From Halosolutus gelatinilyticus (GTDB lineage Archaea; Halobacteriota; Halobacteria; Halobacteriales; Natrialbaceae): a DNA stretch of 64,000 nt. The translations under genes and the position numbers were made by a program. Positions 8,478 to 43,542 of this stretch are shown here, piece after piece. Location: positions 248,001 to 312,000 of the forward strand of contig NZ_CP095491.1 in assembly GCF_023028105.1 (NCBI RefSeq), read 5' to 3'. Position 1 is the first letter of the stretch; the number at the start of each line of letters is the position of its first letter. The notes beneath the pieces were generated by a model. That model did no database searches, was not told the DNA's origin, and saw only the letters and a list, made by a program, of their open reading frames with translations.

Positions 8478-8717
8478 CGCAGATTCGACACGACCAGCCC
8501 GATCACCACGTTCGTGCCGATCCGATCGCGGTAACGATCGGTCGGTCGATCGACGCCCGGTCGATCGCCCTCGAATTGGCCGCTACCGACCGGAACGGAA
8601 CGACGATCGCGATTCGACGCCGCCGGAGTCGATCGCCTTCGGGCGACTGGCCGGTGGTGCGCACGAACGTGCACAAAAATCGGCGTCGAACGCCGCCGGG
8701 GAAGCACAAACACGGGG

Positions 8718-43032: not shown

Positions 43033-43542
43033 ATGAGCCTTCCCATCGATCCCGCGGCGATCGATCCGGACGACTACGGCGAGAAGCAGGCCGTCCTCGA
43101 GATGGGCCACGAAGAGGCGATCGAACACGTCCGCGAGGTCTGTCTCGACGTCGGCTTCGGCATCCCCGTCGAGTTCTCGCCTTCGGACCTGCTGAACGAG
43201 AAGGTCGACAGAGAGGCACGACGTGCCTCGAGCAGTCGGACTGCGTCCGACGACGCCGATCGCGACCCCTACTACGTACTCGGCGCGTGCAACCCCGAGA
43301 TCGCGGATCGGGCGCTCGACGAAACCCTGCGTATCGGCGGACTGTTCCCCTGTAACGTGATCGTCTGGGAGGAAGAGCCGGGACGACAGCGGGTCTACCA
43401 CGTCTCGATCATGAATATCGCCCGCCTGTTGGGTATCGCGCCGGACACCGAGGCGTGGGCCGACATCGTCGACACGACCGGCAACCTCACCGCGGAGGCC
43501 TTCGAGCGGTTCGACTCGGTCGAAACTGAGGTCACGGACTGA
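43033..43542 (+). CDS. DUF302 domain protein with palindrome-derived insert
   Basis: The 169-residue protein carries the DUF302 domain: EEAIEHVREVCLDVGFGIPV, YYVLGACNPEIADRALDE, GLFPCNVIVWEE. In usual family members the two halves of this domain are joined by about ten residues. Here an extra RREARRASSSRTAS-type stretch sits between NEKVD and DPYYVLGACN. The extra DNA is two hairpins (43213-43251) and keeps the frame. It may bind small metabolites or haem; the role is not known. The ATG at 43033 begins MSLPIDPAAID, with weaker coding before it. Confidence 0.85.
   Translation: MSLPIDPAAIDPDDYGEKQAVLEMGHEEAIEHVREVCLDVGFGIPVEFSPSDLLNEKVDREARRASSSRTASDDADRDPYYVLGACNPEIADRALDETLRIGGLFPCNVIVWEEEPGRQRVYHVSIMNIARLLGIAPDTEAWADIVDTTGNLTAEAFERFDSVETEVTD
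43213..43251. repeat. In-frame pair of palindromes inside the DUF302 gene
   Basis: GAGGCAC-GAC-GTGCCTC at 43213-43229 is a perfect 7-bp-stem hairpin (8 bp if the inner G-C pair is counted). GTCGGA-CTGCG-TCCGAC at 43235-43251 is a second perfect one. Together they span 39 bases and translate into a low-complexity Arg/Ser/Ala segment absent from the family consensus as I recall it. They appear to be an inserted palindromic element kept in frame. Confidence 0.65.

Follow-up and report, generated by a model that had tools for sequence, protein, structure and literature searches.

In-frame double hairpins in haloarchaeal genes: a DUF302 insertion as a probable copy of a dispersed palindromic element

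A DUF302-family gene in the 4.76-Mb genome of a haloarchaeon is interrupted in frame by a 45-nt double hairpin. This is probably a copy of a palindromic element, dispersed and non-autonomous, that belongs to the class Halobacteria. In-frame palindromic insertions were previously described as peculiar to Rickettsia and a small number of organelles and REP-rich bacteria. The archaeal family seen here is class-wide and has entered many genes, often essential ones, among them those for tRNA synthetases and for purine and redox enzymes; nearly all of its copies share one reading frame, and its hairpins are intact against synonymous drift. The family explains the recurrent SSSRTxSDD and VEHGSTSSR low-complexity segments of haloarchaeal protein annotation. 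It also makes two questions testable in culturable organisms: the spread of transposase-free hairpin elements and selection for secondary structure in coding sequence. The initial annotation knew of no such description for haloarchaea, and none of this family was found in a search of open-access papers.

The insertion in the DUF302 gene

The window, the whole 64-kb stretch of DNA that was analysed (G000:C1:248001-312000), carries the host gene and the element listed in Table 1. The gene was matched in 116 of 125 genomes of the family by homologue search, and 23 aligned homologues of 82-90% identity have an ATG start identical to the one at 43033. In the nearest orthologues the match spans 462 nt, as against 507 here, and the alignment places the extra 45 nt cleanly between LLNEKV and DADRDPYYVLGACNP, neither of which varies among the 23 homologues. 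The initial annotation had read this segment as an inserted palindromic element lying in frame between conserved DUF302 parts, and that reading is supported; its 39-base unit at 43213-43251 has to give way to the 45 nt defined against empty homologues (43206-43250 or an equivalent). The placement is ambiguous by 4 nt, with equivalents up to 43210-43254, because CGAC flanks both sides. Both of the perfect hairpins described at the outset are present, the second having a 7-bp stem and a 3-base loop instead of the 6-bp stem and 5-base loop assigned to it. A predicted structure of the DUF302 protein (mean pLDDT 57.7) locates the insert in a link of low confidence that joins a helix to a strand, and the overall confidence is too low to say more than this rough location.

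Table 1. Coordinates in the window of the DUF302 gene, the inserted element and its parts
Feature	Position	Strand	Basis and remarks
DUF302-family host gene	43033..43542	+	169 aa including the insert, 154 without; Pfam PF03625, E=2.3e-15; homologues use the same ATG
45-nt (15-residue) inserted element	43206..43250	+	Placed against the sites that lack the insert in congeners and in other genera; R1 match 43207-43257, 72 bits
Left junction CGAC, the target's Asp codon, repeated at the right junction	43206..43209	+	Empty site GGT-CGAC-GCC
Hairpin 1: GAGGCAC GAC GTGCCTC, 7-bp stem, 3-nt loop	43213..43229	+	Sequence; stem covariation; RNA and DNA folding predictions
Linker GAGCA between the hairpins	43230..43234	+	GARCA/GGACA-type linker conserved in the family
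Hairpin 2: GTCGGAC TGC GTCCGAC, 7-bp stem, 3-nt loop	43235..43251	+	Sequence, alignment, loop census
Right junction CGAC, second copy of the target's Asp codon	43251..43254	+	Empty site GGT-CGAC-GCC

Homologues were compared, as proposed earlier for a check on the insertion: in 115 other family genomes the best homologue lacks the segment, both by match span and by alignment. The exception is a divergent DUF302 paralogue in three genomes (G025, G093 and G069), which has the element at the same site. These copies (L163, L164 and L165) share the unusual AGAGAGG start of the window copy, and their hairpin-2 loop is inverted, reading GCA where the window copy has TGC. Shared descent, recombination and re-use of the site are alternative explanations of this coincidence.

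Taken alone, the window sequence is suggestive, and it is the repeat family that gives the segment its significance. Perfect stems of at least 7 bp number 75 in the window against 48.5 ± 6.6 in codon-shuffled controls, an excess apparently driven by CGATCG-rich sequence. Adjacent hairpin pairs are in themselves no rarity here, at 14 entries where the controls average 3.9 and never exceed 8. With other adjacent hairpins and a stem excess in the window, the bare sequence feature is not decisive. The other pairs (at 8522, 11332, 48785, 51193 and 61397) were considered as copies of the element and rejected; their sequences are unrelated to it and look CGATCG-rich, and they were taken as chance. 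The folding energy of the window copy by itself is unremarkable (z of −1.15 as RNA and −1.45 as DNA), and an Rfam 15 search of the window returned nothing at gathering score.

The repeat family, its hosts and its reading frame

The element is dispersed. Searched with the segment by BLAST, the window genome yields three strong non-self matches with E<=6e-8 (84% over 62 nt, 80% over 56 nt and 88% over 41 nt). A covariance model, R1, finds about 18 double-hairpin copies of >=30 bits in the window genome, within genes and, for a few, between them; the GC-rich background reaches about 20 bits. The unit is thus far from the single-copy sequence that would have refuted the original reading. Among 13 aligned copies within the genus, 98.4% of stem cells are paired and 28 double changes occur. 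In the 104-copy alignment, 98.8% of 1350 cells are paired, with 218 double changes compared with 62 in shuffles and 4-15 with a slid partner. The basic unit is 45 nt long, AGC-[stem 1, 3-nt loop, stem 1']-GAGCAG-[stem 2, 3-nt loop, stem 2']-GAC, and its signature consists of hairpin 2 (GYCGGAC-NNN-GTCCGRC) together with the GAGCAG linker, hairpin 1 being the most variable between hosts. An alternative hairpin 2 with tandem G-A mismatches, GTC-GA-GCGGC-GAA-GCCGC-GA-GAC, is also seen in frame inside genes (L070, L072-L076 and L079).

At E<=1e-8, a threshold to be read as rough, R1 matches 231 of 292 Halobacteria genomes and 64 of 78 genera, and it matches none of about 124 sampled genomes of the phylum outside this class. 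A scan of 84,980 prokaryote species for the exact hairpin-2/linker pattern returned 49 stretches, every one haloarchaeal (from Natrinema, Natronococcus, Halorubrum, Haloarcula, Halorussus, Halapricum and other genera) and none bacterial. Neither phages nor IMG/VR gave a match that would indicate viral carriage; three hits to the element came from haloarchaeal megaplasmids.

Hosts identified in the window genome by profile searches include ileS, valS, purNH (a PurN-PurH fusion), lpd (dihydrolipoyl dehydrogenase) and genes for nicotinate phosphoribosyltransferase, a periplasmic-binding protein, an HdrA-like iron-sulphur protein, a DUF255 protein, a metallo-beta-lactamase-fold hydrolase and a PCC-domain protein; a further host, trpS (tryptophanyl-tRNA synthetase), was named from its sequence only. 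At L081 (G000:C1:1114402-1114488), the periplasmic-binding-protein gene contains a second, single element-like hairpin (ISEACRASSA) several dozen codons upstream of its element. Alignment of orthologues from relatives yielded occupied and empty alleles at the same site in 17 host genes, with net inserts of 45 nt in most and of 48, 54 or 93 nt in others, all divisible by three. A net insert of 42 nt comes from one alignment with a single empty homologue, and purNH has one larger replacement that is likewise a multiple of three. The larger cases are tandem or multi-hairpin, the 93-nt insert of ileS comprising four hairpins.

Nearly all empty sites have an in-phase Asp codon, and the occupied alleles have GAC at both junctions, so that the junction of the DUF302 insertion recurs in nearly all of the 17 hosts. 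The Asp-codon target could partly reflect the Asp-rich surface loops of halophilic proteins. Within genes the unit encodes a 15-residue Ser/Arg/Asp loop of the DSEARRASSSRTASDD type at linkers or domain borders, as between PurN and PurH, between two Lpd domains and ahead of the anticodon-binding domain of IleS.

The element is found almost exclusively in one orientation and frame. Classified with the gene calls of this analysis and a codon table trained on the window, 97 of the 104 copies lie in genes in the sense direction and phase 0. The remainder comprise one antisense copy, one in a different frame and about five outside coding sequence. A rule that asked only for GAC, on whichever strand, would put 35% of the roughly 99 in-gene copies in sense phase 0. 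In the independent exact-pattern sample 45 of 49 stretches are in the same frame, hairpin 1 being intact in most. Selection after insertion may account for this bias, or else a frame-aware mechanism. The matching GAC codons on either side of the hairpins, together with conserved stems enclosing a loop peptide that is not conserved, would also suit translational bypassing, in which ribosomes would skip the hairpins by leaving the first GAC and landing on the second, as at the byps of Magnusiomyces mitochondria. Bypassing would require neither insert lengths in multiples of three nor the frame that stays open through nearly all in-gene copies, and it is a very improbable explanation.

The copies could instead have formed where they stand, by replication slippage or template switching at existing element-like sequence, giving tandem 45-nt duplications and no movement between loci. 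Tandem 45-nt arrays are found in histidine kinases and elsewhere, loop inversions occur between orthologues (see below), and at the insertion point the empty alleles of purD (L103, L251 and L252) and PolX (L243 and L244) already have the left end of the element, GACAGCGAGGC / GTCAGCGAG. As an account of the whole family, however, local formation is unlikely: near-identical units with at most one mismatch sit in unrelated genes, only GAC or CGAC is common to the unit and the empty site in most hosts, and the linker and hairpin-2 sequence is held in common across the class. The tandem arrays suggest that local duplication contributes alongside dispersal, and part of the family may arise in this way, given the element-like sequence in 'empty' purD and PolX and in the histidine-kinase N-box. 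In many haloarchaeal histidine kinases this conserved N-box (NLFRNSVEHGST) is encoded by a hairpin 1 (GTGGAACACGGTTCCAC; L174, L175, L181-L183 and L185-L187 in G128, G331 and G258) and is often followed by tandem 45-nt units repeating VEHGS. The N-box may be the source of the element or a preferred home for it.

Conservation of pairing and inversion of loops

The stems are maintained at the nucleotide level. Between orthologous copies in 15 host-gene groups, third codon positions differ by 3.1% in the stems against 31.4% in the flanks, and the stem value is below that of the flank in all 15 host genes; third positions of stems so far below those of flanks indicate that pairing itself is kept. 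The loops differ by 19.1% (26.6% for the hairpin-1 loop). That hairpins outlast the silent positions around them means that something acts on the shape of the DNA or RNA itself. Homogenisation between loci was rejected as the cause, as stems are host-specific yet shared across species (for example GAGGAAC in the CBS gene and GCGGGAC in an ALDH gene), and so was recent spread, as the loops have diverged. Most copies entered the sample through a high model score, and such scoring favours perfect stems, a concern answered in part by a length-defined set from one genus retrieved by host gene only: 17 of 17 occupied alleles in four hosts have a detectable unit, stem 1 being partly degraded in one of them (L257).

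These figures bear directly on a protein-level explanation, by which a Ser/Arg/Asp low-complexity module or linker is kept for the sake of the protein, with codon usage producing the palindromes incidentally. The single reading frame of nearly all in-gene copies, the polar, acidic, halophile-like peptide and its placement at linkers are as such a module would have them. A module conserved as peptide would not, however, hold stem third positions about ten times more constant than flanking ones while loops change amino acids freely (EEQSS, EEPRS, EERSS and EELRS at one site) and both sides of a stem change together through amino-acid changes; nor would it account for intergenic copies. We regard this explanation as improbable.

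The best explanation for the conservation of the stems in place is either that unpaired stems are selected against or that repair within the hairpin is biased. Wobble pairs among the 1350 cells (13 G.T against 7 A.C) are too few to separate RNA from DNA as the level at which pairing matters. In several hosts the loop of one orthologue is the exact reverse complement of that of another, in hairpin 2 of the DUF302, HdrA-like and TrxR genes and in hairpin 1 of the CBS and PolX genes. Such reverse complements make up five of the ten orthologue loop pairs that differ at all three bases (P=0.03 against loops drawn from the family pool, a weak test). This is suggestive of flipping of the hairpin or cruciform, which would take place at the DNA level.

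A further reading, which we put forward only tentatively, is that the palindromes are functional in place. The family would have begun as a frame-preserving mobile element directed to Asp codons and would now consist of domesticated 45-nt double hairpins in essential genes across the class, their pairing being under selection in coding sequence. Conceivable roles for the hairpins would include those of DNA-architecture sites and of mRNA structures pacing translation at domain borders.

Relation to known palindromic elements and mode of spread

The closest parallel is with the Rickettsia palindromic elements (RPEs), palindromic repeats that lie in frame in unrelated functional protein genes and leave a foreign peptide there (PMC10969869, PMC3733652). 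The initial annotation compared the DUF302 segment with RPEs, and the comparison is apt for the way in which the element works, as in both cases the in-frame insertion is absent from homologues; membership does not follow, length, host domain and stem maintenance being different and the exact hairpin-2/linker pattern being absent from the bacteria scanned. RPEs are bacterial and about 100-150 bp long, whereas the haloarchaeal element is a class-wide archaeal double hairpin of 45 nt held to one frame and strand. RPEs also lose repeat identity over time (PMC6649704), a decay after insertion that is not seen here, where stems diverge by 2.2% against 31% for flanking third positions. The haloarchaeal element thus works like an RPE and, by its length and lack of decay, is not one.

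Short hairpin units, dimers and clusters, some of them intragenic, with stems that are heterogeneous but complementary, are also characteristic of REPs (PMC3733652), to which RPE-4 and RPE-6 belong as CGTC REPs (PMC3733652). A derivation from REP/RAYT or from IS200/IS605 sequences of the PATE type would assign its movement to a Y1 tyrosine transposase that works on hairpins in single-stranded form. The hairpin dimer with conserved short ends would suit such an enzyme, and the reverse strand begins CGTC-GTCGGAC, a tag-like CGTC beside the stem as in CGTC-tagged REPs (PMC3733652). The fit to these REPs is partial: their stems are 8-9 bp long with A/T in the first two pairs (PMC3733652), whereas those of the element start G/C rich (G-T/C in this hairpin, with a 7-bp stem) and measure 7-8 bp. 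CGTC REPs are themselves without a known dedicated transposase, and GTAG REPs accompany RAYT genes, whereas searches for a REP-type Y1 transposase gene (PF01797) found none in the window genome or in four further genomes with copies (G016, G023, G128 and G140). Movement by a Y1 transposase is accordingly considered unlikely.

Among small transposase-free mobile repeats of haloarchaea, the PATEs of Haloquadratum carry palindromes and relate to IS605 ends, and the mobilisation of SMRs from the same group has been called enigmatic (PMC3119063). SMRs differ in being 80-110 bp long, in having terminal inverted repeats and in targeting other mobile elements, and the descriptions of PATEs, SMRs and MITEs include no 45-nt unit lying in frame within housekeeping genes (PMC3119063). 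Of MITE traits, the element has no terminal inverted repeat across the unit, and the GAC at both junctions could be a duplication of 3-4 nt. The coding palindromes of nematomorph mitochondria resemble it as intragenic inverted repeats that stay perfect (PMC6649704), but they reach 142 bp per arm and form no dispersed family of conserved sequence.

To return to the preferred reading, that of a dispersed non-autonomous element, we propose that a folded single strand or a cruciform is the form in which it is copied to new sites and that joining takes place at short GAC/CGAC homologies, which at an Asp codon would always preserve the frame. Selection would purge copies that are out of this frame or that fall in structured regions of proteins. 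The insertion event was not observed, and no mobilising enzyme was found in this analysis.

About 95% of sampled copies lie in genes, in a sample drawn mostly from the window's own family, whereas REPs are mainly extragenic. The RepRanger survey of archaeal REPs covered intergenic regions only and names no haloarchaeon in its text (PMC12306157). Intergenic arrays of the element predominate only in some genomes. Long arrays in which hairpins alternate with the linkers CGACAGC and TGGCAG are present at several loci in one genus (L170-L173 and L177-L180; G128 and G140), and these arrays share building blocks with the units found in coding sequence.
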